Below, piece by piece: positions 71 through 45,772 of a stretch of 64,000 nt of DNA. Origin of the DNA: Candidatus Izemoplasmatales bacterium. GTDB lineage: Bacteria; Bacillota_I; Bacilli_A; Izemoplasmatales; Hujiaoplasmataceae. The notes below the pieces were generated by a model. It searched no databases. It was not told the origin of the DNA and saw nothing but the letters and a program-made list of their open reading frames with translations. Each line of letters opens with the position of its first letter. Position 1 is the stretch's first letter. Made by a program: the position numbers and the translations under genes. Location of the stretch: NCBI GenBank assembly GCA_028691315.1, contig JAQUZN010000001.1, positions 145,238-209,237 on the forward strand, read 5' to 3'.

Positions 71-192
71 AGTTTTTCGCATATAAATAATGATTCAGAA
101 ATTACTACAATATCACAACTGCATAAAGATTCATGCCATGCTATTATTTCATACTTGATTAAAGTATCACTTAATCAATCACTCAAATTTCG
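71..192 (+). repeat. 18-bp iteron array A (short)
   Basis: Five 9-mers lie exactly 18 bp apart: AATGATTCA (89), ACAATATCA (107), AAAGATTCA (125), ATTATTTCA (143) and AAAGTATCA (161). The 9-bp spacers between them are unrelated. Degenerate copies may extend to 71 and 192. The alternation of a GATTCA-type and an ATTTCA-type element is the same as in the larger arrays at 36297 and 42711, and the orientation matches the 36297 array. The interval is gene-free and lies before the fibre gene at 392. Confidence 0.7.
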
Positions 193-23909: not shown

Positions 23910-26900
23910 TTACTGAGAAGCTAATAATTCCATATTGTTAATGATATCCAATAACTCTTTATCTGGATTACTCTGTGTCGAATTGTTAATAGCATTCAAC
24001 AAGTTCATCTTTAATGCTGATGATTGAGCTTTCCTATCTTTTGGAGCTACGTTATCATTTGTTGTGGATACTGTTGCCACTAATTGAGATAATAATGTAA
24101 CGATTTGTTTCATGTTGTCAGAATTATCAACTAATTTTACAAGCAATTGAATAACCGTTTTAAGCATAACTAACAACACTTCTGAATTCGAAGTTTGTGA
24201 TACACTCGTATTGTTATTCACAACAGCTGTTTCATAGATATTATCTCCACTCGTGCTCTTAGAAGTTGTATAGTTATAATACGGTGTAGCGGAATACGTA
24301 TTGGTATTAGATGCAGAGTAATCCTTGAGACTGCTTCCAATTCCAGAACCTTTACCACTAAAACCACCACTAAATTTATTAATAAGTCTACCAACTCTAG
24401 AGCTTGACTGATATCCTCTACCAGCAATCGATTTGATCGCTTTACTTGTAGATTTAATCCCTTTCGATAATAATCCAGAACCTTTACCAGTCATAAATTG
24501 ATTTAAACGTCTGGTTTGAGCATAACCATGACCATTAGCAGAACCACCGTTAATATGACCATCAACTTCTTCTGTTGCAGCATAGAATGGTCCTGGAGCG
24601 CCAGTAGGTCCACTCTGACCCATAGTCCTACCATCACCAACATACATCTCGACATGACCTTTTGGTCTACCATAAAGAATAATATCACCAAGTTGTAATT
24701 TACTTATAGTGGGGCCAATCTTTTTCTCACCGACATTATGATCTTCAATCAATGTGGTATTTGGGTTATCAAGCTGAGCGCCAGTATAACTACCAACATC
24801 AACACCAGTCACATGTTTATAGATTCCCTGTACTGTAGAAGAACAGTCAGAACCATAACCGTTTGATGTCGGAACCATTTTATCATTCTCAATTTTAAAG
24901 TTGCTACGTTGAGGTTGAGAATATTTAACCGTCTTTTCAGAGTTCTTCATAATATCAACAAGCTTTTGCTGTTGTTCCGATACCGAACCAGCGTCTTTAT
25001 AACCACTGGAACTAGTTGTGCCATCTTTATCTTCTGTAATAGTTTCTCCATTTGTATCATCACCCACATTTAAACCATAGGCTTTTGCAAGATCATCTAC
25101 AATAGAGAAGATATCAAGAATAGTTTTAGGATTCTTCCATGAAGATTCGGTGCTTACCGTAGTTCCTGTAGCACTACTAGATTCGTTAGATGTTATACCA
25201 ATGGCATTACCATTGACATCGTAATATCCTTCTCCATATTTCTGACGTTTATCCTGTCCAATATAACCAAATGGATCTGTGCCATTAGCCTTAACAGGAT
25301 GGCTATAATAATTATAAGTAGATCCTAATGTATTCTTAATAACAGTTTCATGTTGCTTGTATTGCGTATAATCTCTAATATTAGAAACTCCACTTGCTGA
25401 TGCTATATCTAATACGCTATCATGCTCATCTATATACATCGGTAACGTACGTTTACCATCAACCAATACTTCTTTAGTCCATTTAACTGCATCCTGCGAT
25501 ACTCCACTAGCATTGTTAAATCTTTGCGCTCCTTTCGCAAACCATCCACTCTTAGCTTGCTTCTCAAGGTCATTTCCACTATATAATTCTGCTCTATTGG
25601 CAAGCATTGACACTTCAGCTTTTACGCCTTCAATACTACTACCTTGTTCATGAACTGCAATGTTAGCGATACCTCTATATGTAGATTCTGGCAATCCCGT
25701 AAACTTATGGAAGTTAACAGAGGCTTCACCACCAGTCACTGCTTTGCCAGTAAATTCTTTAAAAGCATCATTCGCATGTTTAAGTCTATTAGACAAGCCA
25801 GCTTTATCAGAGAAAGGTCTTTCAAACTTAGCACAGAAAGCCGTTGTTGCCATATCTATATCATTAGTTGTTTTAAACTGTTGGAAAGTGATGTTATACT
25901 TTGCAGGATAATCTCTTCCAACATATTTTCCACCAGAAGGCCAAATCCATTGTGCACCACTATCGATTTCTTGGAACATAAAATCTAATTGAATATCGAC
26001 ATCGCTATTCTCCCAAGAAACTCCTCTGGAGTTACAGTATTCTTTGAATCGTGTTTTTCTTCCTCCTGACCATTGAACCATACCGATTCCGCCACCTGAA
26101 CCTTTTTCAACGGCATTTAATTTTATTTCCGGACTTCCAGATTCAACAGCAAGGTTACCAATAATACCAGCGGCAGCAGCTTCAGATAATCCTTTTGATC
26201 TACAATAGTTCCAAACCTTTTCACGATTATTCTTACCAGCAGTCGCTTGACCTCTATAGGCATTTAAGTATTTCATAATACCAGAACCAGCAAGTCTAGC
26301 ATCTAACCGTTTATTCTTTGGAACTGGTGCAACTCCAAATGTTACAGAACTAAGAATCTCTTCTGTCGGATACATCATATTAGCTTTCTTAGATTCTGGA
26401 TCATTTACATAAATATATCTTCCATCTGGACTCATACCAGTTGCTACAATATAATGCCCATTAGAACCAAATGGGGAATTCTTTTTACTCGTATTTCCAG
26501 GATTCTGACCAATCAAAACAACAGGTCGATCTCTCATAAGAAGATCAATAACAGCTTCTTTTGAGTTTGGATTTCCTGCGGATATAAATGCTGAACTTAA
26601 TCCATTATCTGCAAATTGCTGAATGAAGTAATCAGCTGTTACACCATCATCTTTTGCTTTAAATGGAAGAGCTTTCTTAATTGCTTTACCGAAGGTTTCC
26701 TTCTTATAAGTCATCCCTCGTTTATTAGCAAGATTGATAGCCATAGTTGCAGCCGCAGGTGCACAACCTGCATCTGATACTGTTTCAATATCTGTATCTC
26801 CAGGAATACTAAATCTTTGTCTTGAGTAAGGAGAATCAATCTGTGATACAAAGTATTCTTTCTTTCTTAATTCTCTTTGCTCTTGAGGATCTTGATATTC

Positions 26901-29900
26901 TGTAATCGGTCGATCAATATATTCTTTTGGAATCGGCGCATCGCTTTCTTCAAGATCAGTACCTTTACCAAAGAAACTTTTAATACCATTAAATATAGAT
27001 GCTCCAAGACCTACAGCACCTCTAATCGTTTTCTTAATATTACTTTCTCTCTTCTTAGCAACTGAACTAACTAAAGTACTTCCTCTGCTTAATAAAGTAT
27101 TTCCAGCACTTGCGGTATATGCGGCTTGACCAAAGTTTTCATTTGTTGATCCACTGTAAGTATTGTCAACCCCAGCAAGTGTTTCACTGCTAAGAGAAAT
27201 CATATTATTTAATAATACAATCGGAAGCATTAAAGCTTTCTCATACATTGTGAGGAAATGAGCTAATTTACCTCCAATGGTATCGGTGTTAATTTCACTC
27301 TTTACTTTCCAGTAATTTTCAAGATCTGTTTTCTCTACATTTGTTTTTGTATTTTCGTGCTCTGCATCAATAATCGGTAATGCTTCATTTAAAGAAAACA
27401 TCATATTTATCATTGAAGATTCAGAATTATAAATCATTTGTTCAGTAGCTTCTTCTAATAATCCAGCAGGAGTTACAGTTTCTTCTCCTGTTTCATTATA
27501 AGTAGCATCATTATAAACATTTGAAGATTCAGAACCTGTATTTGATCCTGTAGTATCCGTATTTGTAGGATTATAGTTATATCCCCAAGCTGACGCCACA
27601 TTGCTATTTACGTCATCCCGAGTAGCGTTCCCTCCAGTCATAGATGTCGTACTTGAAGAATCATAACTACCATCGGTTGTTTGATAATTGGTGGATATCG
27701 CTTCTGTAGCAACATCTGTTGGATTATAAACCTCCATTGTTTCTACAGAACTTGTATCGGAAGAAACATTTCCTTGTCCACTATTTTTAAAATCTCCACG
27801 TAAAGTTTTAATTGGGTGGAAAATAGCATTTTTTATTTTGGTGCCAATTTTATCTTTTGCTAAATATTCATCTACATTAAGATTTGTACCGTTCTTGATA
27901 TTATAATCTTCAACTTCTTTTGCTAATTCAGATTGCTGTTCTCTGATATCAGCGACTGCATCTTTAAAGAATGGAATGTTTTCAGCTATATTTATTGCCC
28001 ATTCAAACAACGTATCCAAAGGAAGTAATCCAAACAAGAACGTGTCATTCAGCATAGATATGGCGCCTGAGATTAACTTCTGTACAAACGTAGGTTCTTT
28101 GATATTCATGTACTCATCAGCTTTTCTCCAACCACTAATAAAACCAATAACAGCGAATGCTATTGTTGCGATACCAGCAGTTCCAACCAATGCGGTTACT
28201 TTTGCGGCTGCTTTACCAACTAATTTACCAGCAGTTTTTCCAAGATTTGCAGTAACTTTTGTTACAAGAGACTTAGAAAAATTCTGTAATGTTTTTTCTA
28301 CTGATTCTTTTGATAAACCTTTAGCTGCTCGCTGAACTATCTTTACAACTTTACTATCTTTGAATATTTTAGGAACTGTATCCGTAATCTTTTTAATAAG
28401 TTTACCAATCAACCCTTTATTGGCTTTGGAAGTGGTTTTTGCAATTTTACTTTGGACTTTTCCTAAACCTTTTTTACCGATTTCTGACATTTTCTTTCCT
28501 AAAGTAGTATCAGCAATTTTAGAACCAAATTTCTGTATTTTTTGAACTGCTTTGGAATTCTTTACTTTATTAGCCGCTCTACTGGTAAGTGAAACATAAT
28601 CTTCAGCTTTTGCGATATTCTTAGAACCAACCAGACCAGAAGGCATATGTTTCGCGCCAAAATTACCAGCAGCATTAATACTTTCGCCAACTCCAGCCAT
28701 CCCAGCACCAAGCATTGATTTGGCTCCTCGGAACATCCTTTTCCGAATGAAACCACCTTTAAAAAGCCCACCAGTCACTTTTTTAGCATTCTTCTTGGCC
28801 ATCTTAGAGCCAAATTTAATCAATCCGTTAGCAATACCACCAGTTCTGCCACTAATTACAGCACGACCCATAGCACCAGCAACTCTTTTGCTAGTCGACC
28901 ATTCTCCTCTACCATAAGCAGTGCCAAGAACACCTTTACTATTTTCAAGCTGTTGATCATATGAGATTGATGAATCTAATCCCAATTCTGCTGCAATATC
29001 TGGATAATTTAATATATCTGCGCCAGTAACTACATATTCAGTTCCATCTGAATCTATATCCGTGCCAATAACGACATCATCACGATTAAGTAGTTCACTT
29101 ATAGTCATTTCTCCATAACCATCGATTGTCACTACATTATCTTTAACTTGATTATAACTTTCCAACGCATTTTGCTGCATTGTTTCGTTTGTATAACCAA
29201 ATGCTTTTGGAAGATTCTGTCGTATAGCTCCTGAATTATTACGTCTATTACTACTGATATATGAACTAGTTTTGGCGGTAGCCTGGGTTGTTCCAGAGTT
29301 ATCTGATGATGTTGAACTGCTACTTGTAGTATTTGTAGTGATATTTGTTCCCGAAGTTTTCCAAGAACCAGAAACTTCATAATTCAAATCTTTTGGTTTA
29401 TTTACTGCTATATTTTTAATATCAGTTTTTTGACCTTTATTACTACTATAATCAACTTTACGATCCTCTTTATTGTTTCCAAAGAGACCTTTTAAGAATC
29501 CACCAACACCTTTAATTGCACTCATAAGGATTTGTGGAAGATTTGAAATAATGATTTCTACAACTTTAGGTGCAACATTACCCATCATATACTCAAAACC
29601 TGTTAAAAGATTTGGAAGTATTTTATCATTTAATAAATATGGAAATCCTTTCCCTTCAAAGTGTCCAGTCCCAGAGAAGAAATCACCTAAATAAGTAACA
29701 CCATTATTTAAATGATTACCGAAGAAATGACCAATTTTTTCCGGAAGTGTTTCCATTACCTCTCCCGTATGTTTCCATCCAGATAAAAATCCATCTTTTA
29801 AATCAGTGAATATAGGAAGAATCTTATCCTTGATAAATCCACCGATCTTAGGAGCAAATGCAATCAAACTGCCAAAGAATGCAGCTTTTCCAGCAGTTTT

Positions 29901-32900
29901 TAATATCTTAGCAAAGATGCCTTCTCCATCACTAGATCCTTCTTCTGCATTTTTTCCACCAAAGAAACTAAAGATTCTTCCAGGAAGAGATTTAATATTT
30001 TCAAATATCCCACCTTGTGTTTCATGAGCTTCTTTTAATCTCTTTTTTGTTTGGACGGTTTCTGTATTGGATTTATCTTCATGCCATCCTCCGTCTCTCC
30101 CTCGAATATATTTCATAGGAGATCCTTGAGACATATCCCATTTTACATTCGGATCATCTTTATCAGTTTCATTTGATTTAGCAGCACGTTTAATACCAAG
30201 CTTTGCTTTTAATTTATCTTTGATCCCGTGAATACGACCTGACATTCTAGCAAGGATAGACGGTTTTGCTCCAGCAGCAAATTCGGATTCATCTAACGCC
30301 TCATAACTAGCATCCATAAACCCTTCAGGATCTACATTTGCAAATTTATTGAAAATACTTGTAGATTCTGCTTTTGTCGGTTCTTTGTCTTCAGCAGCTT
30401 TTGTCTTAGTATCCTTTTGAGCTTTATCTTTTTTAGCTTTATCAGAATTTGGAAATGCTATTACATAAAGACTATCATCGATATTCTTAAGAGTTCCCAT
30501 AATATCTTTATGCTTTTCATCTAACTTTAATTCAACATTCCATGCTTTTGGTGAATTGATATCAGCCATAGCTTCTTTGGCTTTTTCATATCCTTCACCA
30601 GTACTAACACGACCTTTTACTTCACTTTCTAAATCACGTTGAAATCCGAGATTGGAAATATCTACTCCAGTTCTCTTTTGGATTTGTTGACGTAGAACAT
30701 TGGCTTTGGAGGCAGCTTCAAAAGATTTATTTCTTCGTTCAGCGGAGTCTTTGATGAGTTTAATAGCTTGATCTTTATAATCAGCCATCCTTGGATTGCC
30801 TTCTATAATATTAACGGCACCTTTCCATTCACCCCTCATCACCTCTTTCATAATCTCTTTACGATCATGATCAGAGATATCACCCCTATTCTGATGGGAT
30901 AATAAATATTTATCAAGATTTAAACTCTTAGCGGCTTCTTCTGCGATTTTTAAAACAGAACCTTTTTTCCCAAGTCTAGGGTCTAATCTTTTTGCCGCCG
31001 CTTGCATCTCTAATAATTGTTCTTCATCAAGAGAATCAAGCAACATATCCGATCTATTCGCATCTGATCCTGTAAGCTTAGGACCTCGGAATTTACGAGA
31101 AGCGTCTATATTAGCTCTCTCTAAGATTCTGCCGGATGCAACTCCACCAGCTTTTCCAGATTTACTTAATTGGCCTCTTCTTAAACTCCTACCCATAGCA
31201 CCAACAGCTTTAAATGGTGCACTCACAACCCCTTTAACCATATTGAGAGGTACACTTATTAACTTACCAATTCCTTTTTGTAAAGGTTGCACTATTTTCT
31301 TAATAGTATCTCCAATTGGTTTCATGATATGGGTATCAAAAGACGTCTTAATCTTATCGCCAATCCAATTACCCATATTTTTGAATTGTTGTTTAAATGG
31401 TTTTGCAGCTTCTTGTAATGGAGAGAATATTTTATCTTTGAACCATTTGATTGAATCGTCGAAGAATTTCTTCATTCCATTCAATGGGACTTCAAGTATA
31501 TTCTTTACGATACCAAATATACCACCAGCTCGTTTACCGTCAAAGCCTTCATAACCAAATAAAATATCTTTAAATTTATCAGTATCTGAAGCAAATCCTA
31601 AAGCAGATCCCAAGAACACATTCGTTGCAACTCCAAATGGACCACCTAAGAAACCAGCAATAGCACCAAGACCCATTTTTGGAAGTTTCTTTTTAAGTTG
31701 TTCTGGAAGTCCTTTTAGTTTACCATCTTCACCAAATAAAGCCTCTTTAATATTGTCATTGTTTTTAGCAAATCCAATTGCAGAACCTAAGATAACACCA
31801 GCAATCGGTCCACCTGGAACAAATGGTAAAATAGAAGTGATAGCTCCAACCGTAGCACCTTTACCCATATCTGGAGCATATTTATTAAAGTTATTGCTAA
31901 GATCTTTGCTTAATAATCCGCCTTGGTATTGACCATCTTTTTGCTCACCAAACAATAAGTTTCTTACTCGATCAGAATCTTTAATAAGAGAAATAGCAGC
32001 TCCAGCGGCAGCTCCTAATAATGGCCCTCCAATAGCACCAGTGATAAGTGATGCACCAGCCCCGATAACACCACCTGTAGTCATACCAGGAGCATATTCT
32101 TTAATATTCTCCATGACATCACTAATGGCTTCTTTTACATTATCAGAAGTATCTTGACCGATCTTATCTTTTACTTTACCAAAGAGAGCTTCTCTCATAG
32201 AGGATGTCTGTTCGATGAACTTATTCATCTCATCTTTCATTTTCCAGAAGAGAGATTCTTCACCTTCTACATAATCATCTTTCGATGATTTAGGTCCATT
32301 AAAGGCGGAGCGACGAACTTCTTCGACGATTGCTTCTTTATGAGCCGCATCTATAATCGATTGATCAACATTATTTGATTGAGAAGCTTTTTCTTTATTT
32401 ATACGCCTCTTAGCACTTTCTGGTAACCAAATTCCTCCATCATTAAAGTTAAGAATACTCTTCATAAATTTCTTCTTAGCTTTATTTTCATTCTTTTCTC
32501 TTTTAGCAATGTTAAAAGGATTTAAATCTGGAGGAATAATCATTTCGCCTTCACTAACAGCAATGATTCCAGTTTTGGTTACTCGATCAAGACCTTTAGC
32601 AGCATTACCAATAGAAGATTCTTTAACATCAGCCATTCCTTGAATGGTTTTATTATATCCTCTTCTATCTTTTTGTAATTGATTATAAATCTCGAAAATA
32701 AGATCATCGTTTTCTGGTTCTGAACGAAGACCTTTTTCCATATCCATTCGAGCTTTCTTAGAAGACTTACGATATTGGTCTTTTGCTCTACCTTGTTTAT
32801 TTTTCTTACCTCGAATTCCAAAGTAATCAAAAACTCCAGTAAAAGCATTTTTTATATAACTACCAACACCCTTAAATTCTTTCTTTACTTCTTGAACGAA

Positions 32901-35216
32901 TCCTCCAAGAATACCTTTATTTTGATCTTTATCACCAAAGAAAAAAGATCTTGTTTTATCGATCATAGTATCCAAATCGATACCGAACATTCCAAAGAAT
33001 TTATTAGCAGCATTTTTTACATTCTCTTTTGAGAATTTTCCTCTAATTGGATTGAAGATATTTTCTTTCATCCAATCATTAAAAGATTTAAAAGATTCTT
33101 CCATTTTATCAAAAACTGTTTTGATAAAACCTTTTTCTTCACCTTTTGCATCTTTTTTATTTTTCTTCTTTTCATCACCAAAGATAAAGGAATATATATG
33201 ACCATTGACTTTATCGATGATTCCACTAAGCATACCCATCGGTTTGCCCAATTTCTTACCAGCTTTTGTTTTATAAAAACTATCACTGTAATCAAGCATT
33301 TCTCCGGTCATACTTCCGACATCACTATAGTCAATTAAATTATATTTAAATACATCTTGTGCAATCTTATTAGCAGTCTCTTCATCAATAGTTAATCCAG
33401 ATGATTTCTTCGAGCTAGAAGTTGCAGATCCTTTAGTATTTTTATTCGTTCCTCTACTTCGTCGACCAGTTTTTGAAGACTTCTTTGATGTAACTTGCTG
33501 AGCAACAGCTTTCAAGTCATCTTCATCATACATCCCATTGAATAATGATAGCACTGGATTCATAGAGTCTTCTTCAATAGATTTCAATCGTCTATTATAA
33601 GAATCTCGACCCATCTGGTTATTGCCAGCAAATTGTAACCTCATACTCTTTGGGAGTTTTTCCCACATCTGAGTTAAGATCTTGAGATTTTCATCAGAAA
33701 ATTCACCGGACATTCCATAAGCTTTTGTACCACGTTTTTTATCAAATAACTTAGCATTCTTAAAATAATAATTAAAGAACTTCTGCATATCTTTATCGAA
33801 ATCAGATTCTCTTTTCTTATCACCTTTAAAGCTTACAGATTTCTTCATATCTTCAAAAGCTCGTCTCATATCACTATTTGCGTAATATGATTCATTTTGA
33901 AATACTCTACCAAGCTCTTCTCTTAATTCTGAGATTTTAACATATTTACCCGTATCATAATTAAACCGTCTTTCCTCTTTTCCAGATAGAGCTGTATAAA
34001 TTTTAGAAAGATATGTAGGAATCACATCAATAATTGCTTTTCTAGTAACTCCATCAAATGGGACAGCACCTTTCTCATAACCACTGGTGTTGATGCTTCT
34101 CTTTAGACCACCCTTGAATCCTAGCATATTAGCAATTCCTCTTAATAAACCATTGCTACTATCATCTAATCCCGTAATCTTCATAATGGCAGAACCAAAT
34201 GCACCCTCAATGGATTTATTTAATTCTGACATTGACTCTTTTAATACTTTAGGAAGAACCGTTTTGATTAAACCATCAGTAAGCCCTCTTAATGGAGCTT
34301 CTGCTATCATACTCTTTAAAGAACCTTGACTTAATAAGTCTTTAAACATATCAAGCATTCCACCAGAAGTCTCTGACATATTCTGTTTAATCAATTCGCC
34401 ATAAGCCTGCAAGTTTAATGCGCCATCTGTGAATAGATCACTAAACTCCTTCTTGTTATTTCCATAACTAGTTTTCTTTTTCGCATAGCGATTCTTCTCT
34501 AACTCTACGAGTTCTTTTAATAACTCATTTGTTTCTTGATGCATCTTACTAGAGTTCTCATAATAATCTCTAGAGTTTTTATAATGCGTCGTTGTATTCT
34601 CTTTCATATAATCGATAATCATACCGATATTTGTATTAACAGCTCCCATAGAGGAATGTAATCTACCAAAGATAGCAGCATTTTGATCTAAGATTGTCTT
34701 TGTGGATTGTCTTTGTGCTTCAACTTGATACTGAGCAGTTCTAGCCATAAGATTACCAATAGCATTCGTACTCTTCTCAGCAACAGTGTCTAAGTCATTA
34801 AAATCTAATCCACTCTCTGCACTAGGGGATGAAGAGATATTGATATCAGAACCATCATTAACAAAGATATCATCATTATCCAAACCAAAATCAAGATCAC
34901 CAAACATTTCTCGACCGGCTTCATCTTCATATTCCTTCATACGTTCTTTATTATAAAAATTACCTGATTTTAAATCACTCTTTAAATTATCAAGATATGT
35001 TTTAGCCAAACCACCAACTTCACTATCGATTGTTTTCGAATAGACTCCAGAGGCGGTTCCTTTAATATCTTTGATAGCTTTATATGTCTCCTTAAATATT
35101 CCTTCATTTGTTTCATAGAAGGATGTAATAACAGGATTCATACCTTTCATGACATCAATTGCAGAATACTTAACAGACTTTGTTAAGTTTCTAGTGTATT
35201 GAATCATATTCGCCAT
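23910..35216 (-). CDS. Giant tape-measure protein with four wall-hydrolase modules
   Basis: 3768 residues after GAAAGGAG. The first 1000 residues are helical and charged. Residues about 1040-1220 hold three similar Gly/Ala-rich hydrophobic modules, each ending in LFG. Long helical and hydrophobic sequence follows to about 2700. The C-terminal third carries enzymes. A C39-type cysteine peptidase has Cys2818 (DAGCAPAAATM), His2921 (NGHYIVATG) and Asp2939. A phage tail-lysozyme domain at about 3000-3125 has Glu near 3024 (NLAVESG) and GIGMVQW. A SleB-type cell-wall-hydrolase-like region at about 3165-3320 contains IANIAVHEQG. An NlpC/P60 peptidase has Cys3458 (GSDCSSTV) and His3521 (GHVEMYVGDG). 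The protein would set tail length and open the thick wall during DNA entry. At about 0.15 nm per residue the non-enzymatic part predicts a tail of roughly 400 nm, which is an estimate only. Confidence 0.88.
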   Translation of the reverse strand: MANMIQYTRNLTKSVKYSAIDVMKGMNPVITSFYETNEGIFKETYKAIKDIKGTASGVYSKTIDSEVGGLAKTYLDNLKSDLKSGNFYNKERMKEYEDEAGREMFGDLDFGLDNDDIFVNDGSDINISSSPSAESGLDFNDLDTVAEKSTNAIGNLMARTAQYQVEAQRQSTKTILDQNAAIFGRLHSSMGAVNTNIGMIIDYMKENTTTHYKNSRDYYENSSKMHQETNELLKELVELEKNRYAKKKTSYGNNKKEFSDLFTDGALNLQAYGELIKQNMSETSGGMLDMFKDLLSQGSLKSMIAEAPLRGLTDGLIKTVLPKVLKESMSELNKSIEGAFGSAIMKITGLDDSSNGLLRGIANMLGFKGGLKRSINTSGYEKGAVPFDGVTRKAIIDVIPTYLSKIYTALSGKEERRFNYDTGKYVKISELREELGRVFQNESYYANSDMRRAFEDMKKSVSFKGDKKRESDFDKDMQKFFNYYFKNAKLFDKKRGTKAYGMSGEFSDENLKILTQMWEKLPKSMRLQFAGNNQMGRDSYNRRLKSIEEDSMNPVLSLFNGMYDEDDLKAVAQQVTSKKSSKTGRRSRGTNKNTKGSATSSSKKSSGLTIDEETANKIAQDVFKYNLIDYSDVGSMTGEMLDYSDSFYKTKAGKKLGKPMGMLSGIIDKVNGHIYSFIFGDEKKKNKKDAKGEEKGFIKTVFDKMEESFKSFNDWMKENIFNPIRGKFSKENVKNAANKFFGMFGIDLDTMIDKTRSFFFGDKDQNKGILGGFVQEVKKEFKGVGSYIKNAFTGVFDYFGIRGKKNKQGRAKDQYRKSSKKARMDMEKGLRSEPENDDLIFEIYNQLQKDRRGYNKTIQGMADVKESSIGNAAKGLDRVTKTGIIAVSEGEMIIPPDLNPFNIAKREKNENKAKKKFMKSILNFNDGGIWLPESAKRRINKEKASQSNNVDQSIIDAAHKEAIVEEVRRSAFNGPKSSKDDYVEGEESLFWKMKDEMNKFIEQTSSMREALFGKVKDKIGQDTSDNVKEAISDVMENIKEYAPGMTTGGVIGAGASLITGAIGGPLLGAAAGAAISLIKDSDRVRNLLFGEQKDGQYQGGLLSKDLSNNFNKYAPDMGKGATVGAITSILPFVPGGPIAGVILGSAIGFAKNNDNIKEALFGEDGKLKGLPEQLKKKLPKMGLGAIAGFLGGPFGVATNVFLGSALGFASDTDKFKDILFGYEGFDGKRAGGIFGIVKNILEVPLNGMKKFFDDSIKWFKDKIFSPLQEAAKPFKQQFKNMGNWIGDKIKTSFDTHIMKPIGDTIKKIVQPLQKGIGKLISVPLNMVKGVVSAPFKAVGAMGRSLRRGQLSKSGKAGGVASGRILERANIDASRKFRGPKLTGSDANRSDMLLDSLDEEQLLEMQAAAKRLDPRLGKKGSVLKIAEEAAKSLNLDKYLLSHQNRGDISDHDRKEIMKEVMRGEWKGAVNIIEGNPRMADYKDQAIKLIKDSAERRNKSFEAASKANVLRQQIQKRTGVDISNLGFQRDLESEVKGRVSTGEGYEKAKEAMADINSPKAWNVELKLDEKHKDIMGTLKNIDDSLYVIAFPNSDKAKKDKAQKDTKTKAAEDKEPTKAESTSIFNKFANVDPEGFMDASYEALDESEFAAGAKPSILARMSGRIHGIKDKLKAKLGIKRAAKSNETDKDDPNVKWDMSQGSPMKYIRGRDGGWHEDKSNTETVQTKKRLKEAHETQGGIFENIKSLPGRIFSFFGGKNAEEGSSDGEGIFAKILKTAGKAAFFGSLIAFAPKIGGFIKDKILPIFTDLKDGFLSGWKHTGEVMETLPEKIGHFFGNHLNNGVTYLGDFFSGTGHFEGKGFPYLLNDKILPNLLTGFEYMMGNVAPKVVEIIISNLPQILMSAIKGVGGFLKGLFGNNKEDRKVDYSSNKGQKTDIKNIAVNKPKDLNYEVSGSWKTSGTNITTNTTSSSSTSSDNSGTTQATAKTSSYISSNRRNNSGAIRQNLPKAFGYTNETMQQNALESYNQVKDNVVTIDGYGEMTISELLNRDDVVIGTDIDSDGTEYVVTGADILNYPDIAAELGLDSSISYDQQLENSKGVLGTAYGRGEWSTSKRVAGAMGRAVISGRTGGIANGLIKFGSKMAKKNAKKVTGGLFKGGFIRKRMFRGAKSMLGAGMAGVGESINAAGNFGAKHMPSGLVGSKNIAKAEDYVSLTSRAANKVKNSKAVQKIQKFGSKIADTTLGKKMSEIGKKGLGKVQSKIAKTTSKANKGLIGKLIKKITDTVPKIFKDSKVVKIVQRAAKGLSKESVEKTLQNFSKSLVTKVTANLGKTAGKLVGKAAAKVTALVGTAGIATIAFAVIGFISGWRKADEYMNIKEPTFVQKLISGAISMLNDTFLFGLLPLDTLFEWAINIAENIPFFKDAVADIREQQSELAKEVEDYNIKNGTNLNVDEYLAKDKIGTKIKNAIFHPIKTLRGDFKNSGQGNVSSDTSSVETMEVYNPTDVATEAISTNYQTTDGSYDSSSTTSMTGGNATRDDVNSNVASAWGYNYNPTNTDTTGSNTGSESSNVYNDATYNETGEETVTPAGLLEEATEQMIYNSESSMINMMFSLNEALPIIDAEHENTKTNVEKTDLENYWKVKSEINTDTIGGKLAHFLTMYEKALMLPIVLLNNMISLSSETLAGVDNTYSGSTNENFGQAAYTASAGNTLLSRGSTLVSSVAKKRESNIKKTIRGAVGLGASIFNGIKSFFGKGTDLEESDAPIPKEYIDRPITEYQDPQEQRELRKKEYFVSQIDSPYSRQRFSIPGDTDIETVSDAGCAPAAATMAINLANKRGMTYKKETFGKAIKKALPFKAKDDGVTADYFIQQFADNGLSSAFISAGNPNSKEAVIDLLMRDRPVVLIGQNPGNTSKKNSPFGSNGHYIVATGMSPDGRYIYVNDPESKKANMMYPTEEILSSVTFGVAPVPKNKRLDARLAGSGIMKYLNAYRGQATAGKNNREKVWNYCRSKGLSEAAAAGIIGNLAVESGSPEIKLNAVEKGSGGGIGMVQWSGGRKTRFKEYCNSRGVSWENSDVDIQLDFMFQEIDSGAQWIWPSGGKYVGRDYPAKYNITFQQFKTTNDIDMATTAFCAKFERPFSDKAGLSNRLKHANDAFKEFTGKAVTGGEASVNFHKFTGLPESTYRGIANIAVHEQGSSIEGVKAEVSMLANRAELYSGNDLEKQAKSGWFAKGAQRFNNASGVSQDAVKWTKEVLVDGKRTLPMYIDEHDSVLDIASASGVSNIRDYTQYKQHETVIKNTLGSTYNYYSHPVKANGTDPFGYIGQDKRQKYGEGYYDVNGNAIGITSNESSSATGTTVSTESSWKNPKTILDIFSIVDDLAKAYGLNVGDDTNGETITEDKDGTTSSSGYKDAGSVSEQQQKLVDIMKNSEKTVKYSQPQRSNFKIENDKMVPTSNGYGSDCSSTVQGIYKHVTGVDVGSYTGAQLDNPNTTLIEDHNVGEKKIGPTISKLQLGDIILYGRPKGHVEMYVGDGRTMGQSGPTGAPGPFYAATEEVDGHINGGSANGHGYAQTRRLNQFMTGKGSGLLSKGIKSTSKAIKSIAGRGYQSSSRVGRLINKFSGGFSGKGSGIGSSLKDYSASNTNTYSATPYYNYTTSKSTSGDNIYETAVVNNNTSVSQTSNSEVLLVMLKTVIQLLVKLVDNSDNMKQIVTLLSQLVATVSTTNDNVAPKDRKAQSSALKMNLLNAINNSTQSNPDKELLDIINNMELLASQ

Positions 35217-35430: not shown

Positions 35431-36267
35431 ATGACACAAAGTAAACTAGGTGATTTAATACCGAAAAATTTTACCGGTTATAAGTTTATGAGAGGTCAAG
35501 TATGGTGGATTGAGAAAGACGAAAATGAAGAGCAACAAAAAATGAAAAACTCAAATGACCACTTGATTAGCAAGAGCAGACCGTGGGTAATTATTAACCA
35601 TACTACATATGGAAATAAGGATATTATATCCGCAGTCCCACTCAGCAGAAATGCGGAACCAAATTTTCATCACCGCGTTCCATTAATGTTTAATGGTAGT
35701 GCATCTGTCGCTAAATGTGAAGAAGTTCAAACATTCAACAGATCTGATTTCACAACGTATATAGGAACATTAAATGATATTGTAATGGAAGCAATTTCTA
35801 GCAAAATAGCAAATCGTTATGGAATCAGTATGAGGCTACCATCTTTAAAGAATCTCGAAGATATCATTGATCGTATCATTGAAAAGAAAAATCTTCTCAA
35901 TAAAGGTAATGGTGTTAATGATAAGATCGTTCTTGATATTGTAGATAAACTTGAAGATTTGTATGATATTGAAAAAGAAAATTCTCAGCATATTAATGAT
36001 TTGCTTGACCAAGAAATTATTGATGATGAATATCAAGAAGAAGAAATTCTTATGAATGAAGATGATGAGGAAGAAGAAACAGAAATTATTCCAGCCAGTA
36101 AAAAGAAAAAAAGCGGTAAAAGGAAATATCATACATGGGATCCACCTATGATGAAAGAATTTTTACATTATCTTCAAACTAACGGAACGGCAGCAACAGC
36201 AGAACGTTATGGTATTACCAAAAGTACAGTAAATAACAATAAAACTAGATTTTTAAATAAGATTTAA
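35431..36267 (+). CDS. MazF/PemK-like domain fused to a C-terminal helix-turn-helix
   Basis: 278 residues after AAAGGAGGATG. Residues about 20-150 resemble the MazF/PemK endoribonuclease fold: RGQVWWIEKDE, then SKSRPWVIINHTTYGN, then AVPLSRNAEP, then CEEVQTFNRSDFTTYIGTLN. The Arg-Gly opening, the SRPwvI strand and the late 'tf.rsd....G.L' strand are all present. An acidic linker follows at 160-225 (DDEYQEEEILMNEDDEEEE). The last 46 residues (KYHTWDPPMMKEFLHYLQTN then AERYGITKSTVNNNKTRF) form a helix-turn-helix of the transposase/Psq type. No separate antitoxin gene lies beside it. It may be a phage-encoded mRNA interferase or a DNA-binding regulator built on this fold. Activity is not proven by sequence. 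Confidence 0.65.
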   Translation: MTQSKLGDLIPKNFTGYKFMRGQVWWIEKDENEEQQKMKNSNDHLISKSRPWVIINHTTYGNKDIISAVPLSRNAEPNFHHRVPLMFNGSASVAKCEEVQTFNRSDFTTYIGTLNDIVMEAISSKIANRYGISMRLPSLKNLEDIIDRIIEKKNLLNKGNGVNDKIVLDIVDKLEDLYDIEKENSQHINDLLDQEIIDDEYQEEEILMNEDDEEEETEIIPASKKKKSGKRKYHTWDPPMMKEFLHYLQTNGTAATAERYGITKSTVNNNKTRFLNKI

Positions 36268-36296
36268 TATTTATATTTTTAGAGTCTTGGAGAGGT

Positions 36297-36595
36297 AATA
36301 TTTCACTTCATCCTAACGATTCATGTGCGAAAAATATTTCAAGTGTTTTTAAAGATTCAATATAAATTAATATTTCAACAAAACTAAAAGATTCACACCT
36401 TCTTATCATTTCATAGTAAAGTAAAGATTCATCCAAAGGTAGAGTATATCTAAATAAAATAAAGATTCGTGGAAAAATAATATTTCTAAAGGTGGTAAAG
36501 ATTCATTTTATTTTAACTTTTCATAAGGTTCTAAAGATTCACTTTGTTTTAATATTTCAATAGAAACCAAAGATTCGCACCTTCTTATTATTTCA
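36297..36595 (+). repeat. 18-bp iteron array B (17 elements)
   Basis: AATATTTCA-type and AAAGATTCA-type 9-mers alternate every 18 bp at 36297, 36315, 36333, 36351, 36369, 36387, 36405, 36423 and 36441. After a 2-bp slip the series continues at 36461, 36479, 36497, 36515, 36533, 36551, 36569 and 36587. Most 9-bp spacers differ, but one block (CACCTTCTTAT then TAGTAAAGTAAA) occurs twice, at about 36396 and 36578. It lies between convergent genes and is followed by a terminator. It has the same polarity as array A and the opposite polarity to array C. Confidence 0.92.
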
Positions 36596-37584: not shown

Positions 37585-40500
37585 ATGTTTTTCTTAGATG
37601 AACTCATGAAAAATAAAATAACAAAGAAGAAGTTTTTACTTCCTTTGGATGATAAAAATAAACGAAAGGGAAGTCTTGTTCACTTATTAACACCAAATTT
37701 TAATTCTTCTCTTAATATGATCCATAATCAAAAGATCATGCCAAAATATTTCTTTTCTTATTATATGGAAAAGTTTCCAATGTATTATATTAATTCGAAG
37801 ATGAATGTAAATAGTAAAGAAGAAGTTCCAGAAATGGTAGAAGAGGTTGTAGTTCCTGTTCGTGCGGAGAGTAACAATGGATATTTCACATTTCATGGTT
37901 TAGATCGTGATGTAGAAGCTTTAATGGATATTCTGAGACCGGATATGATTAAATATTTTCAAAAGATTTATCGTATTAAGATAAAAAAAGTGGATGTATA
38001 TATTACACATGGGGATCTTACGCAAAGTTGTACATCAGATAAAATTATCATGGCTAGTAAAACAACCTTTGATAAAAGATCTTATCTTGATTACGAAAAA
38101 TATATCCTTATGTATATGCATTTACTATCTGCTCAGATTGCTAACCCAAAAATTAATGAGAATCTTATGATGGCTTCTGCTTTAGTGATGAGTGGAATCT
38201 ATCGTGAAGATAAACCAGAATATGGATTTGGGTTTTCTCTCACTTCATTATGTAATTTAATTAATCAATATATCAAGATAAAAGGACAGCAGGATTTTAT
38301 TGATAAAGTATTAATTAAAAATAATACGATAAAAATGACAATAGAAATCTTTAAAGATATATTTGAGAATAAAAATGAGTTATCAGTAATGCTAAATAAA
38401 AAGAACCGATCGATTTTATCAATAAAAGAATCAATGGTATTAGATGAATCTTCCGATTGTTCATATGAACTAAATTGTTTAAAAGAGGGATATCTTCCGA
38501 TTAATGAAAACCTTACCGCAGTTTTCCATGAAGCGAATTCTTCTTATGATCAGATACTGAGAAGAAATCTATTTAAAGACCGAATCAAAACTAATAAGGA
38601 TTTATTAGCGATCTATAAAGATCATATGACGAAAATGCCAAACATCAAGTATGCTTATCTTCGATTAGATAAGTATAAAGGAAAGAATCTATATAATGAT
38701 CTTTATTATTATAATGAAGTATTCTTCCGTAACAATGGTTTTTCTCATTTAAGAAAATATCAAGTCTATCTGGATTTGATGGAACGAATGATTGTAGATA
38801 AAAGATTTAATCAAGAATATTCTAAAAAAACAGTATTAGTTCCAGTTGCTGATTGGATGGAATTTACCAAGCCAAATAATGGCGCACTGTGGTTAATTGC
38901 GAATGGTGTTAATCCAATCTCTTGTTTTTATCGTTCTTTGCTTCTTAGCCCCAATTACTTAAAGGATACTTACAAAGATATCAATTTTGTTTTTATGGGA
39001 CAGAAGAGTTATTTCGTTGTAGATTTTTCTCAAGAGAATGATATTAATAAAATAAAGACGTTATTTTTAAAGCATATCAAATTATTATGTAGAAATTATG
39101 AACCAACGGATAGCGAAGATGAAACAGATGAAGAAGGTAGAGAATCTTCCCCAAAAGCGATTGCTACTGATATCATTGAGAAGATTGAGAAAACTCAAAG
39201 ACTTAATATCACAAACATCACGCCATCTAATGCAGTAATTAAGCAACCTCAAGTAGCTGCTAACGTAACAAAAGCTGCTATTACCGCAGTTGTTGCAAAA
39301 AATGCAACTACTAAACCAAAGGAAGAACTTAAGTCATCCAAACCAGAAAAAAAAGAAATAAAGCCAAAAGTTTCAGAAAAGAAACCTCCGAAGGTTAAAG
39401 ATGAAATTAATAAGGATGAATTAAAACAAGAATTGATAGATAGGGTTACTGTAGCTTCTTCTACTGCTAAAGATACAGAAGATGCAATTGATATATTGGA
39501 TGATGATGAAAGAGTAAAAGAAATTCTTGCTACATTAGCTATGGATGCAGATGATGGTCCTAAAATGAGTGCAGCTAGAACTTCTCGTCTATTAAAATTA
39601 GAGGATGATTTCTTAGATAAAGAATTTAAGAATAAAAGTATTCGAGATATTCTCCAATTTGATGAAACGGAAGAAGCAATTGAAATAGAACCTATTTCAT
39701 TAGATATCGACTCTGTTAATCAAGAATGGCAAGAATTAAGATATGCAAATGTTAATCAGAAATATAATCTAGATAAAGATATCTTAGCAATGTTTAATTT
39801 CTTCCATGATAAGAAATACCCATTAGTTGTAAAAGATATTAAAGTAGAAGATACTTCTACTAGTGATGATGCTGTTGAAACTTATTCCGTAGTGTATGAA
39901 AATGAACAAGGAAAACGATTCACGGTAGTAATTGATATTCCGAAATTCATAGACGGTAAGTATATGAAATTAAGAGGTAATACAAAAAATATATCATCTC
40001 AATTATTCCCGATGCCAATTATGAAGACAGAAGAAGATACCGTTCAAATTGCTAGTTGTTATAACAAAATCTTTGTTAGAAGATTTGGAACGACGACAGG
40101 AAAGACCAATGTAGGTGCAGATAGATTAGTCAAAACTTTAAATAAGAACAAATTTAACAATCTCCGTATATTGGAAGGGGACAACTCAAGAGTTTGCTCT
40201 AAATACGAAGTTCCAGTAGATTATATTGATATTGGTTCTATCTATTCTGAATTAGAAACTGATAGCGTTTTATTTCAATTTAATCAAGATAAGTTAAGAA
40301 AAGAATACGGAGATATAATTGATTTAAAACAAGGATTCCCAATTGGTTATCATAAAATAAGAAAAGAAATCATTTATTATCGACCAGAAAAAGATGCTTT
40401 TCAATTTTTATCTAGTATGATTACAAACTTTTTATCATATGATATACCGGATTTTGCAAAAGCGTATAATAAAACATCCGTATCTGTTAAATACACTTTC

Positions 40501-42657
40501 TCACAAGCAAGTATATTAGGTGTTCGTATACCGCTTGTTGTTATTTGTGCTTATTCAGAAGGTCTTGAAAAAGTTATGAAAAAAGCTAATATCAGATATG
40601 AGATTAGTGAAAAAAGACCTCAATATAATAAAGATGGTCAAGATATTATTCGATGGAAAGATGGTTATTTATTATATGATTTGAATTATGCTTCATCATT
40701 ACTGATGAATGGATTAAAGGTTTGCAATACAGAGGATTTCTCGATAGCTGAAATGAATCGTAAAACTACATATATCAATTTCTTAGATTCGTTTGGTGGT
40801 AGAATTAAAGCCGATGGTTTAGATAACTTCTATGAATTATTCATCGATAAACCTATTACATTTAATTCATTAAAGTATTATAAATTACCAACAGACTATA
40901 TTGAATTATTAGTATATGCAAATCAGTTATTAACAGATAACCATTTTATCAATCATACATCCATTGATGCTTCTCGACGTATCCGTAGACAGGAATTAAT
41001 TGCTGATCTATTATATCGTGAAGTGCTATCAAAAGCGTATGGGGATTATGTAAACCAAATTAAACATCGTGGTCAAGGATCATTCTCTGTTAAGAGAAAT
41101 GGTTTGATCAATGCCGTTTTATTAAATAATACAACTGAAGATCTATCTATTATCAATCCGGTAAATGAGTATGAATCATATAACCGTGTTTCTCCGGAAG
41201 GACCTGGTGGTTTAAATGCTTCCAGAGCATACACTTTAGAGAAACGTGGATATGATGAATCAATGCAAAACGTATTGTCAATGTCTACCGGATTTTCCGA
41301 GAAGGTTGGTATTCCCAGACAGGCAACCATTGATGCAAATATAAATGGTTATCGTGGATATATCACTAATAATTCAGAGGATGATAAGGATGAAATCAAT
41401 GTAACCAAAACATTAGCTATGACGGAAGCTTTAACTCCATATGGTATTACTAGAGATGATCCATTCCGTTCTGCTATGAACTTTGTACAGACATCGAAAC
41501 ATGGTATGAGATGTAGACAAGCGGATCCTTTATTAATTACTACTGGTGCTGATGAAGCTCTTCCATATTTGATCTCCAATACATTTGCTTATAAATCCCA
41601 AGGAAATGGTCAAGTCATTGAGAAAGATGATAATCATTTGTTAATTCGGTATGACAATAAGAATGGTGAACCTACGTATGATTATATCGATTTAACCGAG
41701 CAAGTAGAAAAAAATTCAAGTAGTGGATTCTTTGTTATCTTGAAATTAGATAGTGATCTTAAAGTAGGAAATAAAATTAAAGAAGGTCAAGTAATAGCAT
41801 ATGACAAAACATCATTTTCTAATTCAGTAGGAATGAATGACAATATTGCTTATAATGTCGGCACCCTTAATAAATTTGCTATTTTAAATACAGATGAAGG
41901 ATATGAAGATAGTGCTATTATTTCTCAAGATTTATCTGCAAAAATGACAACTGATATCGTCATTAAGAAAACAGTTAATCTTCCAAAAGATACTAATATC
42001 TTCAATATGGTTAAGAAAGGTCAATCCATTCGAGAAGGCGATCCTTTATTAATTATTCAAAGACCGTATGATGAAGATGATATGAATACTCTTCTTAAGA
42101 ACCTCGTAGCAGATGAAGATGAGATCACCGAACTTGGAAGACAGCATATATCTTCAAGTGTCACTGGTATTGTACAGGATATTATTATTTCCAGGACCGT
42201 AGAAAAAAGCGAACTCTCTAGTTCCTTGAAAAAGGCAGTTACAACATATGAAAAATCTATTAATGAAAAGAAAAAAATAATGGAGCAATACAATATCGAT
42301 AAAAAGAACGATCTACCTTCTACGGATGTATTACCTTCTACTGGTAAACTCAAAAACAGTGAAGATGGAGTCTTAATAGAGTTCTTTTTAAAATATGAAG
42401 ATAAGATGGCTGTTGGAGATAAGTTGATCTATTGGTCTGCATTGAAAGGTGTAGTAAAAGATATTTTCCCAGAAGGAAAAGAGCCTAGAAGTGAATTTAG
42501 ACCAGATGAAAAAATACATTCCTTACTTTCTATTGGTTCTGTAAATGGTCGTATGACATGTTCTATTATCATAACTTCCGTTATTAATAAAGGATTAATA
42601 GAATTAAGTAGAAAAGTAAAAGATATATTAGGAATTAAATATGATATAAATTTATAA
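37585..42657 (+). CDS. Phage RNA polymerase beta subunit, full-length with long N-terminal extension
   Basis: 1690 residues after GAAGGAGGATAT. Residues 1 to about 500 are an unrecognised domain. Residues about 505-640 are an Ala/Lys/Pro-rich linker. The beta core then follows. Around 790-830 the IDIPKFIDGKYMKLRGN segment and 'SSQLFPMPIMKT' match the protrusion/fork strand and Ql-PG region. Around 1200-1265, RVSPEGPGGLNASRAYTLEK, then 'SMSTGFSEKVGIPRQATID' and 'GYRGYI', match the rifampicin-region block (RRLSALGPGGL...PEGPNIGLI). Around 1600-1670, KMAVGDKLIYWSALKGVV and 'SVNGRMTCS' match the GDK..gRHG.KGV and C-terminal clamp segments. Many phages split beta into two genes, but here it is one polypeptide. 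The catalytic beta-prime subunit is not in this window. It is probably part of a phage polymerase transcribing phage promoters. Confidence 0.8.
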   Translation: MFFLDELMKNKITKKKFLLPLDDKNKRKGSLVHLLTPNFNSSLNMIHNQKIMPKYFFSYYMEKFPMYYINSKMNVNSKEEVPEMVEEVVVPVRAESNNGYFTFHGLDRDVEALMDILRPDMIKYFQKIYRIKIKKVDVYITHGDLTQSCTSDKIIMASKTTFDKRSYLDYEKYILMYMHLLSAQIANPKINENLMMASALVMSGIYREDKPEYGFGFSLTSLCNLINQYIKIKGQQDFIDKVLIKNNTIKMTIEIFKDIFENKNELSVMLNKKNRSILSIKESMVLDESSDCSYELNCLKEGYLPINENLTAVFHEANSSYDQILRRNLFKDRIKTNKDLLAIYKDHMTKMPNIKYAYLRLDKYKGKNLYNDLYYYNEVFFRNNGFSHLRKYQVYLDLMERMIVDKRFNQEYSKKTVLVPVADWMEFTKPNNGALWLIANGVNPISCFYRSLLLSPNYLKDTYKDINFVFMGQKSYFVVDFSQENDINKIKTLFLKHIKLLCRNYEPTDSEDETDEEGRESSPKAIATDIIEKIEKTQRLNITNITPSNAVIKQPQVAANVTKAAITAVVAKNATTKPKEELKSSKPEKKEIKPKVSEKKPPKVKDEINKDELKQELIDRVTVASSTAKDTEDAIDILDDDERVKEILATLAMDADDGPKMSAARTSRLLKLEDDFLDKEFKNKSIRDILQFDETEEAIEIEPISLDIDSVNQEWQELRYANVNQKYNLDKDILAMFNFFHDKKYPLVVKDIKVEDTSTSDDAVETYSVVYENEQGKRFTVVIDIPKFIDGKYMKLRGNTKNISSQLFPMPIMKTEEDTVQIASCYNKIFVRRFGTTTGKTNVGADRLVKTLNKNKFNNLRILEGDNSRVCSKYEVPVDYIDIGSIYSELETDSVLFQFNQDKLRKEYGDIIDLKQGFPIGYHKIRKEIIYYRPEKDAFQFLSSMITNFLSYDIPDFAKAYNKTSVSVKYTFSQASILGVRIPLVVICAYSEGLEKVMKKANIRYEISEKRPQYNKDGQDIIRWKDGYLLYDLNYASSLLMNGLKVCNTEDFSIAEMNRKTTYINFLDSFGGRIKADGLDNFYELFIDKPITFNSLKYYKLPTDYIELLVYANQLLTDNHFINHTSIDASRRIRRQELIADLLYREVLSKAYGDYVNQIKHRGQGSFSVKRNGLINAVLLNNTTEDLSIINPVNEYESYNRVSPEGPGGLNASRAYTLEKRGYDESMQNVLSMSTGFSEKVGIPRQATIDANINGYRGYITNNSEDDKDEINVTKTLAMTEALTPYGITRDDPFRSAMNFVQTSKHGMRCRQADPLLITTGADEALPYLISNTFAYKSQGNGQVIEKDDNHLLIRYDNKNGEPTYDYIDLTEQVEKNSSSGFFVILKLDSDLKVGNKIKEGQVIAYDKTSFSNSVGMNDNIAYNVGTLNKFAILNTDEGYEDSAIISQDLSAKMTTDIVIKKTVNLPKDTNIFNMVKKGQSIREGDPLLIIQRPYDEDDMNTLLKNLVADEDEITELGRQHISSSVTGIVQDIIISRTVEKSELSSSLKKAVTTYEKSINEKKKIMEQYNIDKKNDLPSTDVLPSTGKLKNSEDGVLIEFFLKYEDKMAVGDKLIYWSALKGVVKDIFPEGKEPRSEFRPDEKIHSLLSIGSVNGRMTCSIIITSVINKGLIELSRKVKDILGIKYDINL

Positions 42658-42664
42658 AAAATAA

Positions 42665-42694
42665 ACCACTATAGAGATTTTCCTCTATAGTGGT
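42665..42694. terminator. Terminator after the RNAP gene
   Basis: ACCACTATAGAG and CTCTATAGTGGT form a 12-bp stem with a 6-base loop. The T-run is weak on the plus side (ATTCTTTGAAG) but strong on the minus side (TTTATTTTTT), so plus readthrough into the repeat array is plausible. Confidence 0.7.
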
Positions 42695-42710
42695 ATTCTT
42701 TGAAGTTTTT

Positions 42711-43352
42711 TGAAATTATACTCATATATGAATCTTTATTTCATCATGAAATTATAATGAATCTTGATTCTTTATGACTTTGTGAAATACTAGAATAGGA
42801 TGAATCTTTTAAGTCTTGTGAAATAATCAAATACTCTTGAATCTTTACATGTCTATGAAATAGTAGTCAGCAATGAATCTCATTACTCTATTATGATATA
42901 ATTTAAATCATTGATTCTTTTTTGTAATATGAAATATTATCAGGACATGAATCTTTACTCAACTTTGAAATTATATTATTTTGCGAATCTTTAAATCAAT
43001 TTGAATTATTAGTAATGCATGAATCTTTTAAGTCTTTTGAAATGTTAGTGTCATATGAATCTTTTTCACACCGTGAAATATTAGATCTTTATGAATCTTT
43101 ATGCGACTTTGAAATTTTAACAAATCATGAATCTCTACTTCCCTATGAAATATTAATGGATGTCGAATCTTTACTTTTCTATGAAATTATAGGTTGCAAT
43201 GAATCTTTACTCAACTTTGAAATATTTTATAACACTGAATCTTTACTTTACTATGAAATAATAACAAGTATTGAATCTTTATTTACTTATGAAATATTTT
43301 GTATTGATGAATCTTTATATAATTTTGAAATGCTAATCATGTGTGAATCACA
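42711..43352 (-). repeat. 18-bp iteron array C (36 elements)
   Basis: TGAATCTTT-type and TGAAATATT-type 9-mers alternate with 18-bp steps from 42711 to 43344. There are only three small slips (near 42838, 42894 and 42912), and from 42912 to 43344 every step is exactly 18. These are the reverse complements of the array B elements, so array C is inverted relative to A and B. Most 9-bp spacers vary, although one TTTACTCAACTT block occurs twice (42949 and 43201). The 36-bp double unit equals 12 codons, which creates a chance open frame at 43015-43386. A terminator follows on the plus strand. Confidence 0.94.
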
Positions 43353-43398
43353 GAGTAGCACATTATTAGTACTACTCTGTATGTAAGTTTTTTATTTT
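43350..43398 (+). terminator. Plus-strand terminator at the end of array C
   Basis: ACAGAGTAG pairs with CTACTCTGT (loop of 13), and a T-rich run (GTTTTTTATTTTTG) follows. The T-run overlaps the end of the convergent gene at 43392. Its position means plus-strand transcripts crossing array C would be ended here. Confidence 0.75.
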
Positions 43399-45070: not shown

Positions 45071-45139
45071 ATAATTGATACCTCCAAATGAATATATCAC
45101 GATAAATTTATTATGAAGTTAAGGTATTAATAAAAAATA

Positions 45140-45166
45140 AATCATCCAGATTTATCCAGATGATCT
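45140..45166 (-). terminator. Orphan minus-strand terminator/attenuator
   Basis: A hairpin with outer stem ATCATC / GATGAT and a G-U-tolerant inner part is followed on the minus strand by TTTATTTTTTATT. No protein gene lies directly upstream of it on that strand for over 550 bases, so it would end a non-coding transcript or attenuate the 43913 operon. Confidence 0.55.
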
Positions 45167-45187
45167 TTATATTTTAAATACGATATG

Positions 45188-45405
45188 TTATATACTATGT
45201 AATTTCTTACCAAAATACTCCCCCCCCCCTTTAAAACCCCCCCCCTCGAAACCCACCCGACTGGTTCTCCAAGTGGTATTCCTTTGACGTAGTTAATCTC
45301 GCGAGCGTAAGTCGAGCGGCCGTTGATCTTGTCTTTTGGTTTTTGGTTTTGTTTGTTTTTGATGTTCCCCTCAATGGATCCATTAATGAGCCCTTTGGGT
45401 TTTTA
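45188..45405 (-). other. GC-rich island with G-quadruplex-type tracts and a startless open frame
   Basis: In an otherwise AT-rich region the plus strand shows a 10-C run (45220-45229), TTTAAAA, and a 9-C run (45237-45245), preceded on the minus strand by GGGTGGG (45252-45258). On the minus strand this makes four G-tracts with short loops of 1, 6 and 7 bases, the standard quadruplex pattern. GC-rich sites such as CTCGCGAG and CGGCCG lie at 45299-45325. A minus-strand frame stays open from about 45402 to 45166 and reads INGRSTYAREINYVKGI then PLGEPVGWVSRG before the G-tracts, but it has no usable start codon. It may be a decayed gene fragment, a functional G-rich element or an assembly artefact. 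Confidence 0.55.
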
Positions 45406-45720
45406 TATATAAGAAAATTTTTTCTTATAATTTTGTTAGTAGTTTAAATAAAAATTAATTTTTTACAAGTAATATTCTTTGATAATATTGTAATTCAATA
45501 AATTCTATTTTAGTTAATCTTTCTATTTAATAATTCTATGGAAATGAAGTTCAAAACCAAAACATAAAATCTCTTTCGCTTCGCTCTGTTTCATTCTTTT
45601 TGAATGAAACCTTTGATTTAATAATTGTGATTAAGCTAGTGCATCTTGTAGATTTCTTTACTACGTAAAGAAATCGGAAAACCTACCCTTTCATGAAAAC
45701 CATTAATAGAAAAGAAACAA
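45406..45720. other. Gene-free interval with two perfect hairpins, possible ncRNA
   Basis: No ORF with a ribosome site is present. GTTTCATTC and GAATGAAAC (45588-45610, loop of 5) and GATTTCTTTAC with GTAAAGAAATC (45651-45675, loop of 3) form strong hairpins. TATAAGAAAA with TTTTCTTATA lies near 45405-45426. With the G-rich island and the orphan terminator, the interval 45142-45720 could encode a structured minus-strand RNA. This is inference; no known RNA family was recognised. Confidence 0.35.
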
Positions 45721-45722
45721 AA

Positions 45723-45762
45723 AATAAATACATAGGACTATATGAAATCCTATGTATTTATT
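45723..45762. terminator. Terminator downstream of the 45773 gene
   Basis: AATAAATACATAGGA and its complement form a 15-bp stem with a 10-base loop. The minus-strand side is followed by TTTTTTGTTT, so it ends the 46909-45773 transcript. Confidence 0.85.
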
Positions 45763-45772
45763 CTTATTATAA

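Follow-up and report, generated by a model that had tools for sequence, protein, structure and literature searches.

What is the role of a long run of short alternating repeats that lies beside a phage RNA polymerase gene? The question is raised by a 64,000-nucleotide stretch of DNA (hereafter the window), positions 145238-209237 of a 246,077-bp phage contig (C189), in which a first-pass annotation described 36 elements of two alternating 9-mers at 18-bp steps and knew of no described phage element with such a layout. Our analysis indicates, with high confidence, that this element is a dual-repeat guide-RNA array of the tandem interspaced guide RNA (TIGR) type, which probably serves in trans the single TasA protein of the phage. 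Arrays of this layout had in fact already been published (Faure et al. 2025, PMC12045711); TIGR-Tas systems were described in 2025. The TIGR layout itself is known; C189 differs from the described loci in the dispersal of its arrays far from the one tasA gene. The contig ends repeat 127 bp, and C189 is therefore probably a complete circular phage genome. Its multisubunit RNA polymerase has relatives in the jumbo phages AR9/PBS1, Staphylococcus S6 and Listeria LPJP1, and the contig was binned with bacterial contigs that may not belong to its host.

The sequence itself and a dynamic-programming parse place 36 alternating elements at window positions 42711-43359 (array 1), where the repeat TGAATCTTTA alternates with TGAAATATTA, each 10 bp long, with unrelated 8-bp spacers between them. 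The elements follow one another at 18-bp steps, with single exceptions of 19 and 20 bp, and the 18-bp step holds without deviation from 42893 to the end of the array. The score of array 1 in a scan for chains of alternating motifs was 389, compared with a maximum of 14.5 when the contig was resampled under a Markov model. The number, alternation, spacing and coordinates of the elements given by the first-pass annotation were all correct, as was the perfect phase over the last ~430 bp, but the repeats are of about 10 bp, not 9 bp. Mean pairwise identity in arrays 1-3 is 80-81% for the repeats and 29% for the spacers, which bears out the earlier statement that motif and phase are conserved while spacers vary, and the 36-bp double unit suspected to be the functional one is probably that unit. 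The motif-chain scan recognized exactly four arrays in C189, of 36, 27, 17 and 5 elements, with ~42 guide units in total. Array 2 (window 36290..36595, minus strand; chain score 164; located by parsing) has 17 elements and ~9 guide units, with one degenerate element; array 3, with 27 elements, lies outside the window (C189:92281-92762, plus strand); and array 4 (window 82..169, minus strand; chain score 39.7; read from the sequence) is short and decaying, with five elements and 2-3 guide units.

TIGR arrays are defined by two alternating repeats of 8-12 nt, short spacers (usually 9 nt, 8 nt in SpTIGR) and truncated edge repeats at the ends, followed by a terminator (PMC12045711). Array 1 has two distinct alternating repeats of such length over its 36 elements, and short unique spacers (8 nt) in a unit of 36 bp. 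It resembles in particular the TIGR-TasA systems, with their alternating edge and loop repeats of ~10 nt, spacers of 8-9 nt and 36-nt unit, as well as their truncated edge repeats at the array ends, solo Nop-type Tas protein and occurrence in a phage genome (PMC12045711). We take TGAATCTTTA as the edge repeat and TGAAATATTA as the loop repeat, because arrays 1 and 3 have an element of the TGAATC type at both start and end. Array 1 opens with a 5'-truncated edge repeat, ATTCTTTG (42693..42702, plus strand), which the parse placed in the right 18-bp phase with four mismatches to the edge (A) repeat. It continues with 18 loop repeats alternating with full edge repeats (42711..43343, plus strand), making ~18 guide units with 8-nt spacers, and closes with a 3'-truncated edge repeat, TGAATC (43344..43349, plus strand), in array phase and cut by a hairpin. 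This hairpin and the T-rich tail after it (43350..43380, plus strand; fold -13.3 kcal/mol, z -1.5) form a weak candidate terminator; the T-run begins ~9 nt beyond the hairpin, and the terminator scan gave no flag there. As RNA, edge and loop repeats have a common start, UGAA, and a common end, UUA, that is, box C/D-like ends shared by the two repeats. In relatives the edge and loop also share their ends, but different ones (for example, ...TCA), which fits the published covariation rule for box D and box C ends. The box C-like end of C189, UUA, differs from the CCA of the described systems (PMC12045711).

A Tas protein is encoded in the same genome. Clustering, without any prior, of the open reading frames (ORFs) near arrays gave a single dominant family from 17 loci, and the profile of this family matched one C189 gene (E=2.7e-67). 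This gene is tasA, present in one intact copy that occupies 244664-246077, continues at 128-177 across the contig junction and encodes 487 amino acids. A profile built from TasA proteins only (that of C189 and 11 relatives) matched, among PDB entries, TasH (1.5e-19) and an IS110-type transposase (4.7e-30). An AlphaFold2 model of the TasA of a relative (37% identical to that of C189; pLDDT 81) had as its top five folds TasH-tigRNA complexes (E 9e-5 to 4e-4; PDB 21kl, 9w04), and these five solved chains were the sole matches at E <0.001. C189 TasA belongs to the RNA-binding domain lineage common to IS110-family transposases and the Nop proteins of box C/D small nucleolar ribonucleoproteins, but unlike these it has no recognized transposase catalytic domain and no K-turn guide RNA, and its guides lie in arrays. 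TasH carries an HNH nuclease, whereas neither HNH nor RuvC, the nucleases of the TasH and TasR subtypes, had a Pfam match in the C189 protein, which is therefore classed as TasA-like and expected to bind, not cut. A tblastn search with C189 TasA in 50,697 phage records returned no match. HNH-like N-termini, of the TasH type, were seen in the Tas proteins of the loci L087, L147 and L160, whose adjoining arrays have other repeats.

Arrays and tas genes also occur together in other genomes. When 52 tas loci were selected solely on their protein, 45 proved to have an array with a period of 33-41 bp within 1.3 kb of tas, the period being exactly 36 bp in 34, and all 45 exceed the largest value in shuffled flanks. 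Jumbo phages found in IMG/VR solely by homology of their RNA polymerases have the same array plan with other repeats, so that the search of relatives proposed in the first-pass annotation found the layout kept and the repeats different: the array of L026 has 19-bp steps with TGAATCT and TAATCT, and those of L047 and L058 have 18-bp steps with AATGAATCA and ATAGTATCA. Many further arrays came from a scan for periodic TGAATC, in which simple tandem and coding repeats were separated by column conservation and reading frames. A close counterpart is a 244-kb phage, G031 (IMGVR_UViG_3300033463_000006), in which ~100 array elements adjoin tasA and the edge repeat is TGAATCTTT, as in C189; its TasA is 36-42% identical to that of C189 in two aligned blocks, whereas its loop repeat is AATAATTTA and its spacing is more variable. 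The exact loop-edge-loop motif of C189 had no matches in IMG/VR and GTDB contigs, a blastn comparison of array 1 with phage records gave short chance matches only, and an Rfam search returned nothing above threshold.

If C189 follows the published systems, each array would be transcribed as a precursor, and cuts within the edge repeats would release guide RNAs of ~36 nt. Each guide would be held by a dimer of TasA at the box C/D-like ends common to edge and loop, UG... and ...UUA here, compared with UG and CCA in TasR (PMC12045711). The two-part recognizer previously deduced from the strict alternation would accordingly be a symmetric two-site one, namely the Tas dimer of the published structure. 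Of the two spacers of a unit, A would pair with one strand and B with the other at a single 16-bp DNA site; on this reading the variable spacers are the informative part. With no nuclease domain recognized, TasA is expected to bind and bend its target without cutting it, and the most likely effect, by analogy only, would be to block the transcription or replication of competing DNA. We consider it likely that one jumbo-phage TasA supplied in trans by scattered arrays constitutes a genome-wide, non-cutting RNA-guided DNA-binding system. The ~42 guide units of C189 in four places, and the larger numbers in relatives (~75 in G007), represent a large natural guide set. The arrays resemble CRISPR arrays in their regular repeats and unique spacers, but differ in having two alternating 10-nt repeats and 8-nt spacers, and no Cas genes were recognized among the genes examined.

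Several observations weigh against the assignment of array 1 to a TIGR-TasA system. Most described loci have an array adjoining tas, upstream or downstream, whereas the four arrays of C189 are dispersed across a 246-kb jumbo phage and none is closer to tasA than 56 kb (~56 kb for the nearest). The C189 protein by itself matches TasH weakly (E=0.005), and its identity as a Tas protein, being weak on this single sequence, runs through the family profile; Pfam Nop had no match either in the assembly that contains C189 or in the C189 protein; and this protein has an insertion of ~115 amino acids, which distinguishes it from the described TasA proteins (PMC12045711). Furthermore, predicted targets, derived from the published cut geometry by joining spacer A to the reverse complement of spacer B and searched with gaps of 0-2 bp, did not match above re-paired controls in C189, G001, G007, G008 or 584 kb of the bin, in searches that, with 16-nt guides in AT-rich DNA, are low in power at one or two mismatches. 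Widespread exact self-targeting is excluded.

The order of the tas locus is gyrB-like gene, tas, NUMOD4 ORF and gyrA-like gene in C189, and gyrB-like gene, array, tas, array and gyrA-like gene in the related genome G001, and the two loci are orthologous. The simplest reading is that C189 has lost the arrays beside tasA and that its guides come in trans from the dispersed arrays; since no array stands by tasA although the locus keeps its place, supply in trans is probable. The published survey looked 5 kb around tas genes (PMC12045711) and would therefore have missed arrays far from them, and for this reason an adjoining array is treated here as typical, not defining. In G007, arrays exist at five places, four of which are away from its tas. 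We found no description of dispersed arrays serving tas in trans in the open-licence literature (PMC12045711 without its supplementary tables). If guides are supplied in trans, surveys confined to the surroundings of tas undercount guide stores, and a 5-kb radius misses many guides. The NUMOD4-motif ORF (L009 328-714; C189:328-714) separates tasA from the gyrA-like gene, a place that is occupied by an array in G001.

The same absence of an array beside C189 tasA, where G001 still has two, together with the short and degenerate array 4, could mean that the arrays are orphans or in decay, disused since the tas locus lost its adjoining arrays. We regard this as unlikely, because the repeats of arrays 1-3 are still ~80% identical compared with 29% for the spacers, tasA is intact, and G007, too, carries arrays that are away from tas, at four places.

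Much less probable still is an iteron or centromere-like array bound as DNA by a phage protein, at a replication origin, partition site or packaging site. In its favour are the constant spacing of the direct repeats, their place in non-coding DNA and the four sites per genome, but periodic arrays of this layout occur alongside a Tas/Nop RNA-binding protein at 45 of the 52 loci, have truncated edges at their ends, and keep their layout while their repeats diverge among phages. No initiator or partition protein had a Pfam match among the genes neighbouring the arrays, where no dedicated search was made. The first-pass interpretation, in favour of protein- or RNA-binding sites over recent tandem copying, is partly supported; repeats of a guide-RNA array fit better than DNA iterons, and old duplication of units has also occurred. 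That the array encodes an in-frame 12-amino-acid repeat is extremely improbable: the 18-bp step leaves one frame open for 123 codons (ORF 43015-43386), but the repeat codons hardly vary at synonymous positions, the 19- and 20-bp steps within array 1 break the frame, and in relatives with 37-38-bp units no frame is free of stops. Neutral tandem-repeat expansion, suggested by some duplicated spacers and by the 36- and 108-bp periods from Tandem Repeats Finder, is scarcely credible given mostly unrelated spacers between conserved repeats, the same layout with different repeats in other phages, the linked tas gene, and relatives in which motif and phase are conserved with free spacers.

Within the guide-RNA arrays, traces of copying are nevertheless evident. 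Identical pairs of A spacers number five compared with 0.06 expected, and this sharing of a few spacers shows that old unit duplication occurred. Diverged duplicates of whole units exist in G007, for example TTTCACATA/TGTAGTACT and TTTTACATA/TGTAGTATT in a TIGR array of ~1.6 kb far from tas (G007:85402-87037). Two related phage contigs in IMG/VR (G026:43492-43979 and G027:185-969) have several identical whole TIGR units in common, partly in a different order, which reads as a direct record of array turnover and offers a route to studying it. From the recurring spacers of C189, the duplicates in G007 and the identical units of G026 and G027, arrays seem to grow and change by the copying of units, the repeats being held by selection and the spacers free to diverge. 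Guide pairs common to C189 and its relatives were also sought, with no convincing case.

The 36-, 27- and 17-element arrays of C189 are placed between convergent genes. Array 1 follows the gene for a beta-type subunit of the phage multisubunit RNA polymerase (37585..42657, plus strand; PHROG 3148, E=2e-136, and tblastn matches to jumbo phages), which is context and stands outside the system; the hairpin terminator of this gene (42665..42694, plus strand; z -6.1) is directly upstream of the array. Array 2 is convergent with a gene for a PemK/MazF-like endoribonuclease (window 35431-36267, plus strand; Pfam PF02452, E=2e-12). Elsewhere in the window, a 3768-amino-acid ORF (23910-35216, minus strand) has tail lysozyme and C39 peptidase domains, and C-runs occur at 45218-45250 of this 31% G+C genome, within ~670 bp of non-coding DNA (45101-45772) without a clear gene.
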